The notes under the pieces: model-generated
The model's input: the letters and a program-made list of their open reading frames with translations, nothing else
Databases searched by the model: none
What the model was told of the DNA's origin: nothing
Translations under genes and position numbers: made by a program
Shown here: positions 540 to 51,499 of the stretch, piece after piece
Layout of the letters: every line of letters starts with the position of its first letter
Position numbering within the stretch: the first letter of the stretch is position 1
Assembly (NCBI GenBank): GCA_005887825.1
Contig: VBQC01000002.1
Span: 1 to 51,881, forward strand
Origin: Verrucomicrobiota bacterium
GTDB lineage: Bacteria; Verrucomicrobiota; Verrucomicrobiia; Chthoniobacterales; UBA10450
Direction: 5' to 3'
DNA: 51,881 nucleotides

Positions 540-2606
540 GTGCAGAAAATCGCTGAACGCCCGTTATCATCGCGTACTCGCGCCTGGCTTTTCGGCCTGC
601 TCTTGGCCGCAGTGACGGTCTTCATGTACCAGCCTGCGTGGAATGGTGGCTTCATCTGGGATGACGATGCTTATGTGACAAATAACGAGCTGCTGACCGC
701 GCCCGATGGTTTACGGCGGATTTGGTTTTCACTGGACTCGCCTTCGCAGTATTTCCCGCTGGTTTATAGCACGTTTCGCATCGAGCACGCGCTCTGGGGG
801 CTGAATCCAACGGGTTATCATTGGGTCAATCTTCTGCTTCATGTTGCCAACGCGCTGCTGGTGTGGCGACTGCTGGCGCGCTTGCGTGTGCCGGGTGCGT
901 GGCTGGCAGGAGCGATTTTCGCTCTGCATCCGGTGCAGGTGGAATCAGTTGCCTGGATCACGGAACGCAAAAATGTGCTGATGGCCTTTTTCTTCCTGCT
1001 GACGCTCCTTGCATGGATCGCGTTTGTTGACGAGTGGACGAAGCGGCCATGGCGCTTTTATGCCCTGGCATTGGTCCTTTATGTACTGGCGCTTTCGGCC
1101 AAGACAACGGCCTGCACGCTGCCGGCGGCGTTGCTCTTGATTCTTTGGTTGCAGAAAAAACCGATCAGCTGGCAAAGAATTCTTCAGGTCATTCCGTTTT
1201 TCTTTCTTGGATTGGGGATGGGCTTGGTCACGGTATGGTGGGAACGCTACCATCAAGGCACGAGTCGAACGCTCTTTGCATTCTTGAGTCCGATTGAGCG
1301 CTTCCTTATCGCGAGTCGCGCGGTTTGGTTTTATCTGAGCAAACTCATCTGGCCATCCAATCTGACTTTCATTTATCCAAAATGGAACATCTCGCCCGCG
1401 CATCCCCTGGATTACGTATGGTTGCTGGCGGGAATCGCGTTATGTGCGGTGATCTACTTCGCGAGGCGTTACGTGGGGCGCAGCGTCGAGGTCGCGGCCG
1501 CATTTTTCGTCGCGACGCTTAGTCCAGTCCTCGGCTTTATCATGCTCTACACATTTCGCTACACGTTTGTGGCAGACCATTACCAGTATTTGGCGAGCAT
1601 TGGACCAATTGCGTTGGCTTCGGCGGGTGTCGCCACGCTAGCTTGCACTTTTAAGCGGAGTCGCCCTCTGATTTTGAGCGCGGCGGGGTGTGTGACCGTA
1701 ACTTTAGCACTACTGACGTGGCGACAAGCCGCGATGTATGCTGACATTGAGGCCCTCTGGCGGACGACGCTAAAAGGAAATCCAGAATGCTGGATGGCTC
1801 ACAATAATTTGGGCATTGCACTTTTCCAGAAAGGTGACACCGACGATGCCATTGCTCATTACCGGACAACCTTGGAGATGCAGCCGGATTTTTGGGATGC
1901 GGAGTACAATCTTGGCATCGCCCTTCTGAGCAAAGGGCAAGTGGACGAGGCAATCGCCCATTGTAGCAATGCCGTCAGGATCGCGCCAAATGATCCAGAT
2001 GCTCAGGTCGCTCTTGGCAACGCACTCCTTCAAAAAGGGCGAATTGATGACGCGATTGTTTATTACCAAAAGGCGCTGTCAATACGACCTGAATACTTCC
2101 TTGCCCACCATAGTCTTGGCCATGCCTTTCTTGAGAAAGGCGAAATCGACGCTGCGATCTCCCATTGCCGCGCTGCGTTGTTGATTCAACCTGAAAATGC
2201 AGATGCACACACAAACCTGGCCATTGCCCTCGATGAAAAAGGCCAGACAGCGGAGGCCATTCAACATTACCAAAAAGCGTTGGAGATTTCTCCACAGTCC
2301 ATTTCCGCCCTAACTAATCTGGCGTGGTTACTGGCTACGTGTTCCAACGCGTCGTTCCGGAACGGGACCAAGGCGCTTGAGCTTGCCAGGGAAGCTGATC
2401 AACTTTCAGGCGGTACCAACACGTTTGTGCTGCACGCATTGGCAGCCGCGTATGCGGAGAGTGGGCAATTTGGAAAGGCTATTGAAATTGCGCGGGCTGC
2501 GATGCAATTAGCACAGACGCAAGGCGACAACTCCCTGGCCGGGGCGCTTCAGCAAGAAATTGCGCTTTATGAGTTGGCGTTGCCCTATCGCGAAACGCCG
2601 AAGTAG
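540..2606 (+). CDS. Membrane protein with C-terminal TPR repeats (TMTC/O-GlcNAc-transferase-like architecture)
   Basis: 688 aa ORF, GTG start; multiple TM segments, then repeated 34-aa TPR units (NLGIALFQKGDTDDAIAHYRTTLEMQPD...). Confidence 0.8.
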   Translation: MQKIAERPLSSRTRAWLFGLLLAAVTVFMYQPAWNGGFIWDDDAYVTNNELLTAPDGLRRIWFSLDSPSQYFPLVYSTFRIEHALWGLNPTGYHWVNLLLHVANALLVWRLLARLRVPGAWLAGAIFALHPVQVESVAWITERKNVLMAFFFLLTLLAWIAFVDEWTKRPWRFYALALVLYVLALSAKTTACTLPAALLLILWLQKKPISWQRILQVIPFFFLGLGMGLVTVWWERYHQGTSRTLFAFLSPIERFLIASRAVWFYLSKLIWPSNLTFIYPKWNISPAHPLDYVWLLAGIALCAVIYFARRYVGRSVEVAAAFFVATLSPVLGFIMLYTFRYTFVADHYQYLASIGPIALASAGVATLACTFKRSRPLILSAAGCVTVTLALLTWRQAAMYADIEALWRTTLKGNPECWMAHNNLGIALFQKGDTDDAIAHYRTTLEMQPDFWDAEYNLGIALLSKGQVDEAIAHCSNAVRIAPNDPDAQVALGNALLQKGRIDDAIVYYQKALSIRPEYFLAHHSLGHAFLEKGEIDAAISHCRAALLIQPENADAHTNLAIALDEKGQTAEAIQHYQKALEISPQSISALTNLAWLLATCSNASFRNGTKALELAREADQLSGGTNTFVLHALAAAYAESGQFGKAIEIARAAMQLAQTQGDNSLAGALQQEIALYELALPYRETPK

Positions 2607-2706
2607 CTTGAGCAGTGACTAACTTTTATCGCGTATGCGACAAAAAGCTTGCGTGCGATGTGGCAGTGGCTTCCAGCCAATCTCTTATCGGCAGAGCTAT
2701 CGGTCG

Positions 2707-4017
2707 TCAGAGCTCGTTGCGCAGGATGTTGAAAACGGTTGTGTTATCGAGCACGCCTTGCAATGCCTCTGTTCCAGGCCCGCTGCCAAACGCAACGACG
2801 TCTTCGACAGTGCCCAACGCGGATTTCGTGTAGAATGTCGCTGGCTCCGGCTGTTCTGCTTCGGGTTGTTCGCCATTGTCTCCGTTCAGCTTGCCAGGTA
2901 TTTTCGCCGCTCCGTACGATTTTGTGCCATTCGGACCGGTTGCCCACGTAATCCAGGGCTGGCCGGCCGAGTTAAATCCCAGCAAGGCGATGCCGCTGTC
3001 TTTCCGAAATGGAAATCCATTTAAGCTCAATCCGCCGATTGCGGCATCGCCGGAGACAATGATGGTCGATTTGGGCCCGGCATAATTTCGTGCAACGGCG
3101 ACTGCGCGATCCAATTCAACCACTTGGCCGAGCGTTCTTTCACCATTGTTTTCCTGCGCCGCCGTGCGCATTAGTCCTGCATCGACCACGAGCATGTATC
3201 CGCCAGTGTTATATTGAAGTAATTCGATCGCCCGACGTACCATATCCGAAAGACTCGGTTGCTGGCTCCGCTCTTCGACTTGGTTCACGAATGCAAGGTC
3301 CACTTTGCTAAAAGCGCCGAAAAGTTTCGGCCGACGCCATGCGGGAATCGCTTCCAACTCGGCTCGCGTTCGAACAATGTCGAAACCGTTGCTACGAAGC
3401 TCGAGTAAGAGATCGCGCCGGTCCTGTCTCTCTCCGTCCTTTGCAGTGGGAAGGAATTGTGCCGCACCGCCACCCATTGCGATGTCGATCTTTCCTCCAG
3501 CAACGAACTCAGCTGCGATCTTCTCGACATCGCTCGGATCGGACGGGTGCGCGTAAAAAGCCGCGTTCGTCGGGTCAGTTAGTTTCACATCTGTCACCAG
3601 ACCAGTGGCTCGTCCATGTTCGCGTGCCAATTCAATGATGCTCGTGATCGGTTTCCCATCGCCATTGATCGCGATCGCGCGGTTGATCGTTTTGACGCCT
3701 GTTGCAATTGCAGTTGCGGCGGCTGCTTGATCCGGAGCGGCGAAATCTTTCGAGTAATTCGTTAGCAAAGCTGCACGAGGCATGGAATCCAGGCTCAGGT
3801 GTGTACCTGCCCCACCGGCGTACGCACGCGTCGGGGCAAGCCGTGCCGGCGTAAGGCCTTCTCCAACAAACAAGATAATTCCGAAAGGTTTTCGAATGAC
3901 CCAGTGCTGAAAATAAAGCACGCCTAGTCCGGCAAAGGCCAGCAAACAGAAAAGCGCCAGCAACTGGTTGCGCCATTTCATTCCCTTCCTTGTAGTGGGG
4001 GTCTGTGACCGTCGCAA
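2707..4017 (-). CDS. Alkaline phosphatase superfamily protein, probably catalytically degenerate
   Basis: 436 aa; N-terminal TM anchor; PhoA-like landmarks (IILFVGEGLT, DQAAAATAIATGVKT, FYAH, GPGTEALQGVLDNT) with catalytic residues replaced. Confidence 0.75.
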   Translation of the reverse strand: MRRSQTPTTRKGMKWRNQLLALFCLLAFAGLGVLYFQHWVIRKPFGIILFVGEGLTPARLAPTRAYAGGAGTHLSLDSMPRAALLTNYSKDFAAPDQAAAATAIATGVKTINRAIAINGDGKPITSIIELAREHGRATGLVTDVKLTDPTNAAFYAHPSDPSDVEKIAAEFVAGGKIDIAMGGGAAQFLPTAKDGERQDRRDLLLELRSNGFDIVRTRAELEAIPAWRRPKLFGAFSKVDLAFVNQVEERSQQPSLSDMVRRAIELLQYNTGGYMLVVDAGLMRTAAQENNGERTLGQVVELDRAVAVARNYAGPKSTIIVSGDAAIGGLSLNGFPFRKDSGIALLGFNSAGQPWITWATGPNGTKSYGAAKIPGKLNGDNGEQPEAEQPEPATFYTKSALGTVEDVVAFGSGPGTEALQGVLDNTTVFNILRNEL

Positions 4018-4090
4018 ATATCGCCCGGCAAATAATGCAACTCTGAACGCTTTCGGGCTTTGGAATAAGGCGGTACGTCGGACAAGATCG

Positions 4091-4106
4091 TGTCACATAT
4101 GTAACA
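4091..4106. promoter_or_regulatory. Near-perfect 16-bp palindrome in the divergent intergenic region
   Basis: TGTCACATATGTAACA; one mismatched pair between the two arms; lies between divergent phosphatase-like gene and gpmI. Confidence 0.25.
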
Positions 4107-4231
4107 TCAATCTGTCCTGCGCGTTGCCGCTGTCCAAAAACAGAAACGGCCAATAGGGCCCTCTCTACAGAAGAAAGCAGAAGAAAGAAGCGCTTGTCGA
4201 TCTTCGCAATCGTCGGCAAAGTGCCCTGCAT

Positions 4232-5785
4232 ATGGCCGGCCCCGTTATGCTGATTATTCGCGATGGCTGGGGCATTAATCCCGGTGGTCAGGAAAAACGG
4301 GAAGAAAACAGCGATGCAACTCTTCTTGCCCGAACGCCGTTTCACAACGGGCTCTACCGGAAGTATCCAGGCGCCAAATTGAGCGCGAGCGGCACCGATG
4401 TCGGTTTACCTAAGGGCCAAATGGGCAACTCCGAAGTTGGCCATCTTAACCTGGGAGCTGGCAGGATCGTTTATCAGGATCTGACGCGAATTAACAAGGC
4501 CATAACGGACGGCGAATTGACGCCCAACGCCGTACTGCGGGAAACTCTTGCCGACACGCGCGGCCACCGGCTTCACTTGCTCGGGCTGGTTTCCGATGGT
4601 GGCGTTCACAGCCATTACTTGCACATGATCGCGCTTGCGAACGCCGCGCGGGAATCAGGCGTTGCGGAGATTTTGATTCACGCGTTCACGGATGGGCGGG
4701 ATACGTCTCCCACTGGCGGGGCTGGGTTTTTGAAAAAGTGCGAGGAGGATCTTGAGAAGAGCGGCGGGCGGATCGTCACCGTCGTAGGACGATACTTCGC
4801 GATGGATCGCGATCGGCGTTGGGACCGCACGAAAAAGGCTTGGGATGCGATCGTTCTCGGACGCGGCGAAATTTGTAAGACGTCCCCCTCTGCCGCTGTG
4901 GGTCGGCAATATAAAAATGGTAAAACCGATGAGTTCATGCCGCCGCTGATTTTTTCTTACGCAAATGAACAGCGCGTCTGTGATGGCGACTCCGTTTTGT
5001 TTTTTAATTTTCGTGCAGATCGGGCGCGGCAATTGTCGCAGGCGTTTTTGCTTAAGGACTTCGATGGTTTTGATCGCGAAGTGTGGCCGCAAGTCCATTT
5101 CGTCACTCTCACGCAATACGACGTGACTTATCCTTCGCCGTTCATTTTTGAGCCCGCCAAGCTCGCGCACATTTTAGGCGAAGTCGTAAGCGCCGCGGGC
5201 AAATCACAATTGCGCATCGCCGAGACGGAAAAGTATGCGCACGTGACTTACTTTTTTAACGGTGGGATCGAGCGCCCTTTTCCCGGCGAAGACCGAAAAC
5301 TTGTGCCTTCGCCAAAAGTCGCGACCTACGACCTTCAGCCGGAGATGAGCGCGCGCGAGGTTACCGACGAAGTCCTCGCGCGCATAGCAAATTACGATTT
5401 AATCGTTCTTAATTTCGCCAATCCGGACATGGTCGGCCATACCGGAATTCTGGAGGCTGGAATCAAGGCCGTCGAAACCGTCGACGATTGCATTGCCCGC
5501 ATTATTCCCAAGCTTCTCGATCTCGGCGGCAAATGCATCGTCACGGCGGACCACGGAAATTGCGAGCAAATGCGGAACCCTGATGGGTCGCCGAACACTG
5601 CGCACACGAGCAACGTTGTGCATTTCATCTACGTCGCGAAAGATGCCGCACAGTTTCGCTGCGAAGATGGAATCCTCGCCGACATAGCGCCCACGCTCCT
5701 ATTTCTACTCGGACTGCCGCAACCGAGGGAAATGACCGGGCACAATTTGCTCGTGCCAGTTTCGCAGGACGCGCCAGTCAGTTAG
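4232..5785 (+). CDS. gpmI: 2,3-bisphosphoglycerate-independent phosphoglycerate mutase
   Basis: 517 aa; MLIIRDGWG, ASGTDVGLPKGQMGNSEVGHLNLGAGR and TADHGNCEQM motifs. Confidence 0.96.
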   Translation: MAGPVMLIIRDGWGINPGGQEKREENSDATLLARTPFHNGLYRKYPGAKLSASGTDVGLPKGQMGNSEVGHLNLGAGRIVYQDLTRINKAITDGELTPNAVLRETLADTRGHRLHLLGLVSDGGVHSHYLHMIALANAARESGVAEILIHAFTDGRDTSPTGGAGFLKKCEEDLEKSGGRIVTVVGRYFAMDRDRRWDRTKKAWDAIVLGRGEICKTSPSAAVGRQYKNGKTDEFMPPLIFSYANEQRVCDGDSVLFFNFRADRARQLSQAFLLKDFDGFDREVWPQVHFVTLTQYDVTYPSPFIFEPAKLAHILGEVVSAAGKSQLRIAETEKYAHVTYFFNGGIERPFPGEDRKLVPSPKVATYDLQPEMSAREVTDEVLARIANYDLIVLNFANPDMVGHTGILEAGIKAVETVDDCIARIIPKLLDLGGKCIVTADHGNCEQMRNPDGSPNTAHTSNVVHFIYVAKDAAQFRCEDGILADIAPTLLFLLGLPQPREMTGHNLLVPVSQDAPVS

Positions 5786-6525
5786 AAGGATCGACAACGC
5801 TCGGCCGCTACGCCGTCGGATGTGATTTCCAAGTGTCGATTCAGCGTTCGCGTTCCGGCCGCGGCGATTCGCTGCAGCAGGTGTAATCGCATCTCGGGCC
5901 TGTTTTCCTGTCGCATCGGCTTGCGTGCGAGCGTTAGCGTATCATTCGATTCTACAAGGGCACCCCATCCAACCGGAATTTCTGAATCGCGAAACAATTC
6001 GCCTGGCAGCACTAGAAAAAAGAAATTCGCGCAGCGATAGCGGATCAGTTTGTCGAACTTCGTGCAATCATAGAGGCGATTTTGCAGCGCGTTCAGCTCA
6101 CGCAAAACGCGCGCATAACCGCGGTGCCCGATCGCCGTGAAATCATATGAATCGAATTCCGGAAAGAGCGAATCGGTAATCCGCAAATTCGGATAGTGCA
6201 CACGCAAGCGTGCTTCGAGAATTTGGCGGCGCTGACAGATTGTTTCGAGGCGTTGGCGCGCTGCCTCGCTGCGGCAATTATCCCTTCGCAAATCAGAGAG
6301 GGCTTGCTTGCATTCAAAAATCGCTGTCGATCCGATCGTTTTTGGATGTGGCCGATAAGCGGCCACGTCGGCGCGATATCGGCATTGAGGCAACCTGACT
6401 TCCATCGCGCAAGCGGAATAGCCGTGCGCTTGGGCCCAGAGAAAAGCAAGACGTTTCAGCTGAGCGTGCCTCGCGGTTTCCCCCTGCGAGTTCGTTACTC
6501 CGACACCCATTTCGCGAGTTCGCAT
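5782..6525 (-). CDS. Hypothetical protein with PD-(D/E)XK-nuclease-like pattern
   Basis: ORF 5782..6699; likely start at internal Met (MRTREMGVGVTNSQGETARHAQLKRLAFLWAQ), overlapping the hemB 3' end; E..(R)ADVAAY...AIFECKQ pattern. Confidence 0.55.
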   Translation of the reverse strand: MRTREMGVGVTNSQGETARHAQLKRLAFLWAQAHGYSACAMEVRLPQCRYRADVAAYRPHPKTIGSTAIFECKQALSDLRRDNCRSEAARQRLETICQRRQILEARLRVHYPNLRITDSLFPEFDSYDFTAIGHRGYARVLRELNALQNRLYDCTKFDKLIRYRCANFFFLVLPGELFRDSEIPVGWGALVESNDTLTLARKPMRQENRPEMRLHLLQRIAAAGTRTLNRHLEITSDGVAAERCRSF

Positions 6526-23084: not shown

Positions 23085-23110
23085 CCGGGATCAGCGATCC
23101 CGGCTACAAC
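23085..23110. repeat. Interspersed palindromic repeat, single-hairpin copy
   Basis: CCGGGATCAGCGATCCCGGCTACAAC; shares ..CGATCCCGGCTACAAC with copies at 24.2 and 51.0 kb. Confidence 0.75.
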
Positions 23111-24117: not shown

Positions 24118-25149
24118 GTGAATCGAGTCGCAATTACTGTAGCCGGCATCGGTGATGCCGGTTTTGCAAACCTGCGCGGTGCGGACCGGGATCACCGATC
24201 CCGGCTACAACGACGCTGGCCGGCGTTTTCTTTCCTTCTTCGATTGCGTCGCTCTGCTCTCGCTCCTTTCGTCGTTCTTTTCGTTGTCTTGACACTGAGC
24301 GCTGAGTCGCCGGGTGCGCCGCAGGCGAAGATTTGGGAAGAGTTTTCCGGTGAGAAAGCTTTGGCTCATGTTCAGCGGCTCGTTGATCTCGGGCCGCGTC
24401 CGCCCGGGTCTGGGGCGATCGAAAAATCCAGGGATTACATCGAGAATCAGCTCCGACTCTCGGGTTGGCAGGTGACGCGGCAGGCGTTCACGGACGACAC
24501 GCCACGCGGCAAAGTTCAGTTCCTGAATCTCATTGCGCGATTCCCGGGGCAGCGGAGCACCGGGCCCTCGTTTTTGTTGTGTTCCCATTACGATACAAAG
24601 ACGTTCGACACGATCCGCTTTGTCGGAGCGAACGATGGCGGTTCGAGCACTGGCTTGCTGTTGGAATTGGGTCGGGTGCTCGGGCGGCATCCAAATCTGG
24701 CTGCAAAGATTGAGCTGGTATTTTTTGACGGCGAGGAAGCGTATGAGCATTTTTCCGAGCACGACGGCCTTTACGGGAGCCGGTATTTTGCCAGGCAGCT
24801 TGGTGGCAGCGGCGCCAAACAATTTCGGGGCGGAATCTTATTCGACATGGTTGGCAACCGTTCTCTAAAGATCACTTTGCCAGCTGATTCGCCCGCGGAA
24901 ATGGCACGAGACGTTTTTGCGTCAGCAGAGGCACTCAAATTACGAAGTCATTTTACTTACCTGGACCGGGAAATGATCGACGACCACATGCCTTTGAACG
25001 AAATCGGAATTCCGACGATCGATGTGATTGACTTTAGTTTCCCCTGGTGGCACACGGCCGAGGATACGATGGATAAGCTCAGCGCGCAGAGTCTCCAGAT
25101 CGTCGGCTCGGTCGCCGCGTATTACCTGTCTGAATTTGCGCTAAAATGA
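24118..25149 (+). CDS. M28-family peptidase/glutaminyl-peptide cyclotransferase-like (true start may lie after the repeat)
   Basis: SHYDTK, GANDGGSSTGLLLELGR, FFDGEEAYEHFSEHDGLYGSRYFA, DDHMPLNEIGIPTIDVIDF, WWHTAEDTMDKLS. Confidence 0.85.
   Translation: MNRVAITVAGIGDAGFANLRGADRDHRSRLQRRWPAFSFLLRLRRSALAPFVVLFVVLTLSAESPGAPQAKIWEEFSGEKALAHVQRLVDLGPRPPGSGAIEKSRDYIENQLRLSGWQVTRQAFTDDTPRGKVQFLNLIARFPGQRSTGPSFLLCSHYDTKTFDTIRFVGANDGGSSTGLLLELGRVLGRHPNLAAKIELVFFDGEEAYEHFSEHDGLYGSRYFARQLGGSGAKQFRGGILFDMVGNRSLKITLPADSPAEMARDVFASAEALKLRSHFTYLDREMIDDHMPLNEIGIPTIDVIDFSFPWWHTAEDTMDKLSAQSLQIVGSVAAYYLSEFALK
24139..24211. repeat. Interspersed palindromic repeat, full double-hairpin copy
   Basis: TGTAGCCGGCATCGGTGATGCCGG - ~23-nt spacer - CCGGGATCACCGATCCCGGCTACAA; outer ends TGTAGCCGG/CCGGCTACA inverted. 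Confidence 0.8.
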
Positions 25150-46938: not shown

Positions 46939-48096
46939 ATGAAGCGCTCTGCTGAGTCGAATTCTGCGGCGGCCAAAAATCGAGAAGACGAGATTCATCA
47001 AATATTAGAGATCCTGCACAAGTGGGGGATTCATACTCTCGGACAGCTCGCCGCACTTGATAAGGAGCAGCTCGGTGCCCGGCTTGGTCCGGAAGCGGTG
47101 CGAATGTGGGAACGGGCGAACGGGCAATCCAATCGGCTGCTCAAACTGGTCCGACCGCCTGAGGCATTCGAGGAAAGCTTCGAATTTGAACACGAAATTG
47201 AAACGGCCGAGCCGCTGCTCTTTATGCTGCGTCGCTTTTTGGAGCAGCTTTCCTTGCGACTGAGCGCGATCTATCTCGTCACAAAAGAACTGACTTTGCG
47301 GATTACTTTTGCCAATCCGCCACGGGTCCGCACACAGGACGGATTCGTTCGGAGGCGAAACGGATTCGCGGCGGCGAATACGCAGATTTACCAACGCGTT
47401 TTCAAAATTCCGCAGCCGACGAACGATGTCGATCTTCTCTTTCGGATGCTGCATACACACTTGGAGAATTTCAAATCGGAGCATGCGATTACTGCGGTCT
47501 CGCTGGACGCGCAGCCAACAAAACCTCCAAAACAGCAATTTGGATTGTTTGAAACGACATTACGCAACCCGAATCAATTATCTGAAACACTCGCGCGTTT
47601 GACTGCTCTGCTGGGCGTCGATCGAGTCGGCACGCCTGTTTTGGAGGAAACGCATCGGCCGGATGCATTTCGAATTCAGCCATTCGCGTGGAATGTTTCG
47701 ATGAGGTTTGCAGCCGACACCCATTCGGCTTCGCTGAGGGCAGGCTTATCTGCCTCTACAGAAGAGAAGAAGGAGGCGCCAGGCGTTGCGCTGCGCCGAT
47801 TTCGACCGCCTACATCTGCAACGGTTTTCATTTCGGAAAATGTTGCGGCGCATTTTCAGAGCAAAAAAATCAGCGGCAAACTTGTCGATCAACGTGGCCC
47901 TTATCTGGCTTCCGGGAATTGGTGGGATGAAAAGATTTGGTCGCGAAGTGAATGGGATTTGCAATTGGAGAACAACGTTTTGGTTCGCTGCCACCAGAGC
48001 CCGCCTTCGCTGAAGCTTCCGCCTACGCTCGCTTCGGCGCGACGAGCCGGCGTGGTAGGCATCGAAAAATGGGAGGTCGATGGGATTTATGATTAG
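46939..48096 (+). CDS. imuB: ImuB C-terminal half (thumb/little finger/C-terminal tail), split gene
   Basis: 385 aa: EIHQILEILHKWGIHTLGQLAALDKEQLGARLGPEAVRMWERANGQSNRLLKLVRPPEAFEESFEFEHEIETAEPLLFMLRRFLEQL...QQFGLFETTLRNPNQLSETLARLTALLGVDRVGTPVLEETHRPDAFR; lacks the palm domain. Confidence 0.9.
   Translation: MKRSAESNSAAAKNREDEIHQILEILHKWGIHTLGQLAALDKEQLGARLGPEAVRMWERANGQSNRLLKLVRPPEAFEESFEFEHEIETAEPLLFMLRRFLEQLSLRLSAIYLVTKELTLRITFANPPRVRTQDGFVRRRNGFAAANTQIYQRVFKIPQPTNDVDLLFRMLHTHLENFKSEHAITAVSLDAQPTKPPKQQFGLFETTLRNPNQLSETLARLTALLGVDRVGTPVLEETHRPDAFRIQPFAWNVSMRFAADTHSASLRAGLSASTEEKKEAPGVALRRFRPPTSATVFISENVAAHFQSKKISGKLVDQRGPYLASGNWWDEKIWSRSEWDLQLENNVLVRCHQSPPSLKLPPTLASARRAGVVGIEKWEVDGIYD
47722..47764. 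repeat. Repeat-like in-frame insertion in imuB-C
   Basis: CATTCGGCTTCGCTGAGGGCAGGCTTATCTGCCTCTACAG; resembles intergenic CTTCGGCTGCGCTCAGGGCAGGCT at ~48161..48184. Confidence 0.6.
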
Positions 48097-48262: not shown

Positions 48263-51200
48263 ATGCCTTACATTGAACTTCATGCGTGTAGCGCGTTTAG
48301 CTTCCTGCGCGGCGCTTCGTTTCCGGAGCAATTGGCCGAGACTGCAGCCGAATTGGAAATGCCGGCAATGGCATTGCTCGATCGGAATGGCGTTTACGGA
48401 GCCCAACGGTTTTCGGTTGCAGCACGCGAGCAAAATATTCGACCGATTATTGGCTGCGAGCTCAGCATGGAAGATGGCGGTATGCTCCCCGTGCTCGTCG
48501 AAAACCGAACAGGCTACAGGAATCTCTGCGAATTACTTACCCAGGCACATTTGCAAAGTGAGAAAGGACAGTGCGCAGTGCGATGGGAAGAGCTGCCGCA
48601 ATTTTCGGAAGGTTTGGTGGCGTTTCTGGGTAGCGCACGCGTCTCGCGCGCTGGCGAGGGCGTCCTCGCCATCGCGAACTTTTCTAGACGTGCGAAATTG
48701 ACAGCGAGTGGGGAATCTTTTGAAAGATTGTTTCGGCGCGACGCCAAAACCAACACGCGAGACGCGTGCGCTACCCAGAATTCTGCAAACCGCGCGCAAT
48801 TCCTCATCAACACTTTCGGTCGCGACAAGGTGTTCGTGGAAATTCAGCGGCATTTCCTTCGCGGAGAGGAGCGCATCAATCGCCAACTTGTCGATGTTGC
48901 GAATTATTATCGATTGCCGCTGGTAGCGACGAACGGTGTGCAGTACGCAAAATCCTACGGCCGTGAGGTCCTTGATGCTTTCACCTGTATTCGTGAGCAC
49001 ACTCACCTGGACGTCGCTGGGAAATTGCTCACTCAAAACAGCGAGCGGCATTTAAAGAGCGAGGCGGAAATGCGCGAACTCTTTCGCGATCTGCCCGAAG
49101 CAATTGAAAACACGTCGCGCCTGAGTGAGCGGCTCACCTTTTCGCTGGAGAATCTTGGCTATGAATTCCCCGAATTTCCAGTGCCGGCCGGTCACTCGAT
49201 GGATTCTTTCCTGCGCACGATCACATGGTTTGGCGCGCAACAGCGTTATGCGGCGATCAGCACCGCGGTAAAACGAAAGCTCGAAGACGAACTCGCGCTC
49301 ATCAGCAAGCTCGAGTTCCCAGGCTATTTTTTGATTGTCTGGGACATCGTGAATTTCTGCCGCGAACACAACATCATGGTGCAGGGGAGGGGCAGCGCCG
49401 CGAACAGCGCTGTTTGTTATTGCCTCGGCATCACGCCCGTCGATCCGGTGAGCAGTCATCTCGTCTTCGAACGATTCTTAAACGAGAGCCGAAAAGGGTG
49501 GCCGGATATCGATCTCGATCTTCCGAGCGGCGATCGAAGAGAGGCTGTGATCCAGGAAATTTATCGCCGCTATGGCAAACACGGCGCGGCCATGACCGCG
49601 AACGTCATCACTTATCGCGGCCGGAGCGCCGCGCGGGAAATCGGCAAGGCGTTAAATTTTTCGCTGAGCATTCTGGATCGCTTCTCACACTTGTTCGCGA
49701 ACGGCGATTTTCCGCACACGCTCGATCTCCAATCGCAGATAGAGCAGGCTGGTTTGCCCAAGGAACATCCGCGCATGCCGGCTTTCGTCAGGCTGTATCA
49801 GGCGATTTATGGTTTGCCGCGACATCTTGGCCAGCATTCCGGCGGGATGATTATTTGCCAGAACAAGCTGAGCTCGTTTGTGCCGCTGGAGAACGCGTCG
49901 ATGCCGGGACGCGTCGTGGCGCAATGGGATAAGGACGATTGCGAAGATCTCGGCATCGTGAAAGTCGATTTGCTCGGGCTCGGGATGATGTCGGTGATGC
50001 AAGATGCGTTTGAGCTGTGTCGCGAGCGGGGGCGCCCCATCGATCTTGCGCACATTCCAAACGATGACGCCGCCACCTTTGAAATGATGCAGAAAGCCGA
50101 CACGATTGGCGTATTTCAAATTGAAAGCCGCGCACAGATGGCGACTCTCCCGCGGATGAAACCGAAATGTTTTTATGATGTGGTCATCGAAGTGGCGATC
50201 ATTCGGCCGGGACCAATCCAGGGTGATATGGTGCATCCATATCTCGCCCGCCGCGCCGGACGCGAGCCGGTCACGTATTTCGATCCGCGATTGGAACCAA
50301 TCCTGGGACGCACCCTCGGTGTCCCTTTGTTTCAGGAACAAATGCTCCAGATCGCGATGATCATGGCCGATTTTTCCGGAAACGAAGCCGAGGAGCTACG
50401 GCGCGCCCTCAGTTTTCATCGCTCGGAGGAACGAATGCAAAAAGTGAGTTTAAAATTACGCGCGGCGATGGAACGCAAGGCCGTCGCGCCTGACAAGATC
50501 GACAAAATTATTCACTCGATTACATCATTTGCGCTTTACGGTTTTCCGGAATCGCACGCAATCAGCTTCGCAATTCTCGCCTATGGCAGCGCCTATTTGA
50601 AAGTGCATCGCGCGGGGGAATTTTACGCCAGCCTTCTTAATAATCAGCCGATGGGTTTTTACACCTCGGCGACGATTGTGAAAGATGCCCACCGGCATGG
50701 GATCAAGATCAAGCCGGTATGTGTTATGCAATCGAACTGGCGCTGCGTGGTCATTTCGGATGACAGCGTGCGACTGGGATTTTGCGTGGTAAATGGATTG
50801 CGCCAGGAACACGCAGATGAACTTGTACGGCAACGCCAGGATCGGCAATTCAACTCGCTCGAAGATTTCAAGCGGCGTGTGCCGCTTTCCAGAGAGGAAC
50901 TCCGCACGCTTGCGGAACTCGGCGCGCTCAATTGTTTCGCCGCTCACCGGCGCGCGGCGATGTGGCGGGTAGAGGAGCAAGCGCCAGAGGCGCTGTTTGC
51001 TGTAGCCGGGATCGGTGATCCCGGTTCAACGATTACGCTGTTCCCGACCGGGACCGATCCCGGCTACAACGTGCCACTTGCGCCAATGACGTTGCCCGAA
51101 CGAGTCCGCGCCGATTACGAGACAATGAATCTGACGACCGGGCCCCATCCGATGAAACTTTTGCGAGCAAGTTTGCCTAATATTTGGCGGGCGATCGATC

Positions 51201-51499
51201 TGCCGCAGGCGCCTCATGGGGCAACGATCCAGATCGCCGGCAATGTGATTTGCCGTCAGCGGCCGGGGACAGCGAAGGGATTTGTTTTTATCAGTTTGGA
51301 AGATGAGACCGGCGTCTCAAATGCGATTGTCGAGCCTGAGTTGTTCGAACGATTTCGCCTCTTAATCACTGAAGAAGCATTTCTGCTCATCGAGGGCGAA
51401 GTGCAGAATTCTGATGACGTTGTTTTGATTAAAACGCGCGACATCAGACCGCTCGCGCATCAAGAACTCGCCGGCAGCGAGTCGCATGATTTCCACTAA
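48263..51499 (+). CDS. dnaE2: Error-prone DNA polymerase III alpha subunit DnaE2 (ImuC)
   Basis: 1078 aa; PHP N-terminus (YIELHACSAFSFLRGASFPEQL), VQGRGSAANSAVCYCLGITPVDP, DIDLDLPSGDRREAVIQEIYRRYG, FPESHAISFAILAYGSAYLK. Confidence 0.96.
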   Translation: MPYIELHACSAFSFLRGASFPEQLAETAAELEMPAMALLDRNGVYGAQRFSVAAREQNIRPIIGCELSMEDGGMLPVLVENRTGYRNLCELLTQAHLQSEKGQCAVRWEELPQFSEGLVAFLGSARVSRAGEGVLAIANFSRRAKLTASGESFERLFRRDAKTNTRDACATQNSANRAQFLINTFGRDKVFVEIQRHFLRGEERINRQLVDVANYYRLPLVATNGVQYAKSYGREVLDAFTCIREHTHLDVAGKLLTQNSERHLKSEAEMRELFRDLPEAIENTSRLSERLTFSLENLGYEFPEFPVPAGHSMDSFLRTITWFGAQQRYAAISTAVKRKLEDELALISKLEFPGYFLIVWDIVNFCREHNIMVQGRGSAANSAVCYCLGITPVDPVSSHLVFERFLNESRKGWPDIDLDLPSGDRREAVIQEIYRRYGKHGAAMTANVITYRGRSAAREIGKALNFSLSILDRFSHLFANGDFPHTLDLQSQIEQAGLPKEHPRMPAFVRLYQAIYGLPRHLGQHSGGMIICQNKLSSFVPLENASMPGRVVAQWDKDDCEDLGIVKVDLLGLGMMSVMQDAFELCRERGRPIDLAHIPNDDAATFEMMQKADTIGVFQIESRAQMATLPRMKPKCFYDVVIEVAIIRPGPIQGDMVHPYLARRAGREPVTYFDPRLEPILGRTLGVPLFQEQMLQIAMIMADFSGNEAEELRRALSFHRSEERMQKVSLKLRAAMERKAVAPDKIDKIIHSITSFALYGFPESHAISFAILAYGSAYLKVHRAGEFYASLLNNQPMGFYTSATIVKDAHRHGIKIKPVCVMQSNWRCVVISDDSVRLGFCVVNGLRQEHADELVRQRQDRQFNSLEDFKRRVPLSREELRTLAELGALNCFAAHRRAAMWRVEEQAPEALFAVAGIGDPGSTITLFPTGTDPGYNVPLAPMTLPERVRADYETMNLTTGPHPMKLLRASLPNIWRAIDLPQAPHGATIQIAGNVICRQRPGTAKGFVFISLEDETGVSNAIVEPELFERFRLLITEEAFLLIEGEVQNSDDVVLIKTRDIRPLAHQELAGSESHDFH
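48624..48780. repeat. 157-bp palindromic/MITE-like element with 25-bp perfect TIRs, in frame inside dnaE2
   Basis: TTCTGGGTAGCGCACGCGTCTCGCG (48624..48648) and exact reverse complement CGCGAGACGCGTGCGCTACCCAGAA (48756..48780). Confidence 0.92.
51001..51070. repeat. Double-hairpin palindromic repeat, in frame inside dnaE2
   Basis: TGTAGCCGGGATCGGTGATCCCGG - spacer - CCGGGACCGATCCCGGCTACAAC; same architecture as 24139..24211. Confidence 0.88.

Follow-up and report, generated by a model that had tools for sequence, protein, structure and literature searches.

A REPIN-like element in frame within a verrucomicrobial dnaE2 gene, and related RAYT insertions predicted to form internal domains of host enzymes

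The stretch of DNA analysed here (the window, 51,881 nucleotides from the 3.06-Mb draft genome of a member of the Verrucomicrobiota) contains a dnaE2 gene whose open reading frame (ORF) of 1078 amino acids stays open through a 157-bp palindromic element. A second palindrome lies further downstream in the same gene. The genes and features of the locus are the following.

46939-48096, plus strand: ImuB-like ORF (C-terminal part of a Y-family polymerase; PF11799, IMS_C), directly upstream of dnaE2, given as context
48263-51499, plus strand: dnaE2, the host gene, a homologue of error-prone DNA polymerase III alpha (Pfam PHP, DNA_pol3_alpha, finger, HHH_6 and OB; PDB fold matches to DnaE-type polymerases)
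48624-48780, plus strand: REPIN-like element of 157 bp, an inverted GTAG-REP dimer, in frame in dnaE2 (inverted 25-bp ends, genomic copies, fold)
48630-48651, plus strand: left REP, with GTAG foot at 48630-48633 and hairpin GCACGCG-TCT-CGCGCGC at 48635-48651 (74 arms from 37 copies)
48635-48778, plus strand: element-encoded peptide, DnaE2 residues 125-172, predicted to be disordered (AlphaFold pLDDT 30-38, model mean 82)
48653-48670, plus strand: left second hairpin, GGCGAGG-GCGT-CCTCGCC (sequence varies, pairing kept across arms)
48730-48750, minus strand: right second hairpin, GTTTTGGCG-TCG-CGCCGAAAC (comparison of hairpin-2 arms)
48753-48774, minus strand: right REP, with GTAG foot (CTAC at 48771-48774) and hairpin 1 (exact 25-bp ends, arm comparison)
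51001-51068, plus strand: second in-frame palindromic REP-like element (GTAGCCGGGATCGGT...ACCGATCCCGGCTAC), in a disordered linker before the OB domain (16-bp perfect inverted arms; residues 908-934 below pLDDT 50)

An earlier description made from the letters of the DNA alone (the sequence-only reading) had presented the 157 bp as an element with perfect 25-bp terminal inverted repeats (TIRs), translated in frame inside dnaE2. The 25-bp ends are exactly complementary, the frame is open and the peptide is as quoted there; imperfect arms reach 41 nt at 85% complementarity (repeat finder), and a single strand of the element folds at -57.4 kcal/mol compared with -30.5 +/- 2.9 for shuffles (z = -9.2). 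While the inverted ends are real, they are hairpins of the REP/RAYT class rather than simple TIRs. The outer block of the family, compared in 74 arms of 37 copies, is nearly invariant and consists of GGGTAG followed by a 7-bp hairpin, GCACGCG-TCT-CGCGTGC, so that GTAG stands at the foot of a short hairpin as in GTAG REPs and REPINs. Covariation is uninformative for this first hairpin, whose columns hardly vary (95.2% paired, 94.4% with arms swapped), and of the hairpin-2 pairs 89% are Watson-Crick within arms, a value that falls to 70% or less when the 3' halves are swapped among arms. The second hairpins usually differ between the two arms of one element (GTTTCGGCG type versus GCGA type), which gives the short element an orientation. 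Its core, some 40 bp, is not conserved among copies. Judged by this sequence anatomy, the 157-bp element is a REPIN-like REP dimer with GTAG-tagged hairpin ends and no plain TIR transposon.

The dnaE2 element matches about 40 places in its own genome, with 72-82% identity over the full length (BLAST), and a 15-nt TIR pattern occurs at 85 sites compared with 0 for a reversed control. Around 40 full elements were reconstructed, dispersed inverted dimers as known for GTAG REPs and REPINs, with a commonest length of 147 bp running from GGTAG to CTACC. These copies bear out the suggestion that the insert is a repeat of mobile-element type in frame within a gene, analogous to the Rickettsia palindromic elements, and we infer that the family is, or has been, mobile. 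An identity of 72-82% among copies does not speak for recent activity of exactly this family. Most copies in the source genome are intergenic, and clearly mid-protein ones are confined to DnaE2 and MetH; thus the phrase 'adapted to survive inside genes' is an overstatement for this genome.

Protein-level searches found the short element in 33 of the 35 genomes of the genus, which are fragmented draft MAGs, with UvrA (several sites), DnaE2 (two sites) and MetH as clear mid-protein hosts. Peptides of the RVSRAG/RDACAT type had been believed to occur in other verrucomicrobial proteins, and they do so in UvrA, MetH, RecG and the DnaE2 of relatives. All mid-protein short elements are read in one frame, GSARVSR...RDACATQ. 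Among the matches listed for this frame, about 17 fall within ORFs that run for 400 aa or more free of stops, although a few of these precede the probable start codon; among those listed for a control peptide from an alternative open frame, about 2 are candidates of this kind. The statement that the TIRs are open in several frames is correct for two of the three entry frames, whereas the third runs into the TAG contained in GTAG and is open in 1 of 74; on average 2.24 of six frames are open per element versus 1.27 for simple base shuffles. Within a 394-genome sample of the phylum, in which the source genome is the sole member of its genus, the end sequence occurs in its GTAG form in the source genome alone, apart from one genome with two mismatches, and in a GGAG form in a few other genera. 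Among the relatives that bear names are Candidatus Udaeobacter and MAGs of soil Verrucomicrobia.

All DnaE2 domains are found around the insert (Pfam). The AlphaFold model, built with 37 sequences, has just two long segments under pLDDT 50, residues 125-172 and 908-934. The first is encoded by the element, in agreement with the proposed surface loop, and DnaE2 is predicted from this model to tolerate the element as a disordered surface-loop insert. The palindrome at 51001-51068 belongs to another GTAG repeat family (GTAGCCGGGATCGGTGATCC) with three further matches in the window (23088-23107, 24139-24158 and 24189-24208). Neither this palindrome nor the RAYT relatives inside host enzymes described below had been noticed in the sequence-only reading.

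In relatives the two disordered loops are filled in frame by at least four different palindromic repeat families, and congeneric loop peptides include RVSRA..RDACATQ, TGCQPV..AACAPQ, NCRASVSDA, GIGDPG..DPGYN and RVVAAF. On a DnaE2 tree built without the insert columns, the repeat family changes among the labelled rows at least five times at the first loop (site a) and at least four times at the second (site b). In one relative (L114) an insert has collapsed in frame, leaving the scar GGTAGCGC|GTGCGCTACC. DnaE2 proteins of other lineages contain, at site a, a native LTGD..GPL segment that is missing from the genus; the inserted peptide has, as had been noted, no counterpart in other DnaE2 proteins. 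Comparison with relatives, proposed for defining the boundaries and any target-site duplication, revealed other inserts and remnants instead of a clean empty site, every genus member examined having one or the other. That almost every member of the genus has inserts in these loops despite changes of family and sequence, and that both loops lie in flexible regions of the model, would also be expected had the insert been co-opted and kept by selection to modulate the polymerase, e.g. as a flexible tether within the ImuA-ImuB-DnaE2 mutasome. We regard such a function as improbable, since the insert families are unrelated between species and some have collapsed to short remnants, as tolerance predicts.

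At C320 the source genome carries a RAYT gene (PF01797) flanked by the same repeat, as in GTAG REP/REPIN systems. Compared with the dnaE2 element, its right end shows 95% and its left end 81% identity, and the RAYT reading frame continues without a stop across the two ends. A RAYT between the same ends also lies within RecG of genome G011, bounded by GGGTAGCGCACGCGTCTCGCG... and ...GCGTGCGCTACCC and read in the DnaE2 frame (GSARVSRVG...RDACATQ). Sharing both ends and frame, it provides a direct link to the 157-bp element. Standalone RAYTs with the same ends were seen as well (L087, L347-L350, L237); they have an upstream ATG outside the left REP, and some adjoin pilus-type genes. TnpA-REP is known to cleave and join single strands at REP hairpins, and by analogy a RAYT may mobilise the 157-bp element. 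An ordinary MITE, whose TIRs serve a DDE transposase and which came to be in frame in DnaE2 by luck, would resemble the element in its short length and inverted ends. It is a very improbable explanation: the ends are GTAG-tagged self-hairpins accompanied by a paired second hairpin, the gene between such ends encodes a Y1/HUH RAYT, and inspection of the flanks of 37 copies revealed no evident direct target-site duplication of the kind left by DDE MITEs. The simple TIR/MITE reading was rejected on these three grounds.

RAYT matches first stood out by unexpectedly long ORFs. In Verrucomicrobia, RAYT elements are in frame within single ORFs for RecG, AlaRS, MetH (two sites), CarB, MgsA/RarA and Sua5, and more distant RAYTs within those for ValRS, DnaE and ClpB. 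Host domains are recognised on both sides of the RAYT in each of these proteins (Pfam, NCBIfam), and the RecG, AlaRS, MetH and CarB fusions exceed an equivalog cut-off (NCBIfam). Among the loops examined in the genus, a RAYT occupies 15 of 28 in RecG and 12 of 19 in CarB, stop codons occurring in none. No second RecG was present among the matches listed for genomes checked by eye, e.g. G007 and G011. With the RecG-borne RAYT as query against 145 genomes of the class, the strong matches outside the genus (E < 1e-40) were all located in stop-free ORFs of 730-1398 aa and sit, judged by their flanks, in RecG and AlaRS. A sequence search of the RAYT domain against the PDB gave no match. We infer from these ORFs that a host-RAYT fusion protein is made and that both halves work. 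An intein family was absent from the Pfam and NCBIfam matches listed for the fused proteins examined, and the RAYT segment is therefore predicted to stay in the protein.

Within a family, pN/pS is about 0.13-0.21 for the RAYT part of RecG and about 0.07-0.21 for the host part, approximate ratios with synonymous sites near saturation. The catalytic residues are retained, the HUH motif and the tyrosine motif each being present in 39 of the 41 RAYTs of the clade. Assembly or binning artefacts as the origin of the long RAYT-bearing ORFs might be suspected from the fragmented MAGs of the genus and from two MAGs (G033 and G038) that hold two RecG alleles each, with and without the RAYT, probably through strain mixing. 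Such an origin is hardly conceivable given that the RAYTs are in frame in many independent genomes with loops free of stops, that the same is seen in other families whose genomes are nearly complete (G020, 99%; G212, 98%; G485, 98% complete) and that their codons evolve under purifying selection.

The RAYT-tree clade (n = 41, support 99) comprises 19 RecG, 11 AlaRS, 6 MetH-type (one labelled other) and 5 standalone members, and the hosts interleave. Congeneric species differ in whether RecG and CarB contain a RAYT. On the RecG host tree RAYT presence changes at least 10 times, and RAYT types require 15 changes versus a shuffled mean of 15.7. Two RecG loci (L295 and L305) with flanks 95-98% identical in DNA differ in RAYT presence; their loop edges differ and the exact insertion point is unreadable from this pair. 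Gene conversion or horizontal exchange of whole alleles, instead of transposition, could account for presence and absence in RecG, and the change counts on the RecG tree, as far as sequence comparison goes, fit gain, loss and allele exchange alike and cannot separate them.

A further explanation regards the RAYTs of RecG, AlaRS, MetH and CarB as vertically inherited, domesticated domains with fossil REP-like ends, nothing moving now. Strong purifying selection on the RAYT domain agrees with domestication, as do the occupation of the same RecG loop and the same AlaRS region across families and the statement in PMC6006769, made there citing others, that RAYTs behave like housekeeping genes. Yet RAYT presence switches repeatedly along the RecG host tree, with which the RAYT types do not agree, the RAYTs of RecG, AlaRS and MetH interleave, near-identical RecGs differ in RAYT presence, and site a of DnaE2 changes family time and again. 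Domestication thus appears possible but unlikely, although it deserves more weight than the other alternatives.

We consider it highly probable that the 157-bp element belongs to the REP/RAYT class as a REPIN-like, non-autonomous member tolerated in a DnaE2 loop, and that autonomous relatives persist in frame in housekeeping enzymes, where the RAYT is a predicted internal domain of the host. A broader proposal, which we favour with distinctly less assurance, is that this verrucomicrobial REP/RAYT clade lives mainly as translated in-frame insertions: the ends would be coding in one favoured frame, an active HUH domain would be carried in essential enzymes, and the elements would move between a few recurrent loop sites, intein-like without splicing, with the dnaE2 element as the non-autonomous form. 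The two inverted GTAG-tagged hairpins would serve as ends for recognition by the RAYT, an HUH/Y1 single-strand transposase, which most likely acts on single-stranded DNA, nicking REP hairpins and joining them, and would insert the full element, or an internally deleted REPIN form, at many sites. Insertions into coding DNA would survive given a permissive loop and a kept frame, ends open in a compatible frame would make survival common, and selection on the host gene presumably weeds out frame-breaking copies. Most RAYTs of the clade would depend on the host ORF for translation and be translated as internal domains of host enzymes, in loops and linkers.

REPs are usually treated as extragenic, and the function and upkeep of RAYTs are unsolved problems. 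If the proposed mode of life is true, residence in essential ORFs explains RAYT expression and protection from loss, careless deletion of a RAYT breaks an essential enzyme, and the RAYT lineage is a non-splicing counterpart of inteins. It yields testable predictions on the expression of host proteins, on cleavage of single strands and on the choice of loop sites. A transposase can also escape notice when proteins are annotated by their host domain alone.

The main text of Di Nocera et al. 2013 (PMC3733652) describes GTAG REP families, including their occurrence within genes, which peaks in Opitutus terrae, and names REPs in uvrA and DnaE2 genes. The short dnaE2 element joins this already known class. 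It shares with the intragenic dimers of O. terrae the GTAG-tagged hairpins, the inverted dimer arrangement, the open frame, the phylum and the location in replication and repair genes including uvrA and DnaE2. It differs from the dimers described there in that the dnaE2 insert is longer (about 50 aa), in that the two DnaE2 loops are occupied by several families in turn and in that whole RAYT genes are in frame in host enzymes; these autonomous relatives were not expected. RAYT genes inside host ORFs go unreported in the main text of PMC3733652 and in the consulted text of PMC6006769, the RAYT survey of Quentin et al. 2018, in which unusually long proteins were dropped as fusions or annotation errors. 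A literature search that covered chiefly openly accessible main texts found no report of in-frame RAYTs within host enzymes.

Pseudomonas REPINs and RAYTs (PMC3116915) and TnpA-REP REPtrons (PMC6006769, PMC8266576) have in common with the present elements REP hairpin ends, a Y1 transposase and non-autonomous short dimers. Classical REPs are extragenic and their RAYT genes standalone; in the present clade the RAYT frame runs uninterrupted across the two ends, and the majority of the RAYTs are embedded in ORFs of other proteins. Rickettsia palindromic elements (RPEs) are likewise short palindromic repeats in frame in genes; in the main text of PMC3733652, RPE-4 and RPE-6 are placed among CGTC repeats without a dedicated transposase. 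The dnaE2 element, whose peptide is predicted from the ORF, is set apart from them by host, length and GTAG type and is not filed as an RPE. Inteins, too, are enzyme-coding mobile segments in frame in conserved housekeeping genes at recurrent sites; unlike them, the RAYT insertions encode an HUH nuclease, and no intein splicing module appeared among the domain matches listed for the fused proteins examined.

Several other ORFs contain in-frame repeats or RAYTs. In two loci (L375, L377) Dtd (D-Tyr-tRNA deacylase) is followed by a RAYT in one ORF, apparently a C-terminal fusion. In the source genome, CarB (L267, G000:C269, ORF 1734-5861) has, in frame in the oligomerisation region, a RAYT of a more distant clade that is present or absent across the genus, and RecG (L268, G000:C109, ORF 2453-4732) has a RAYT with a different end family (STGCQPV). 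One AlaRS ORF (L361) holds two separate RAYT domains at different sites, and two RecG loops (L300, L307) contain nested or composite inserts, in which a RAYT is accompanied by additional REP dimers from another family and every part is in frame. Long tandem UvrA proteins of about 1800-2100 aa (L230 in G035:C42, L228, L224) include several in-frame repeat peptides of different families, and a HolA-like ORF (L006, G000:C84) has an in-frame GTGILPV...TAVPR repeat peptide of another palindromic family.
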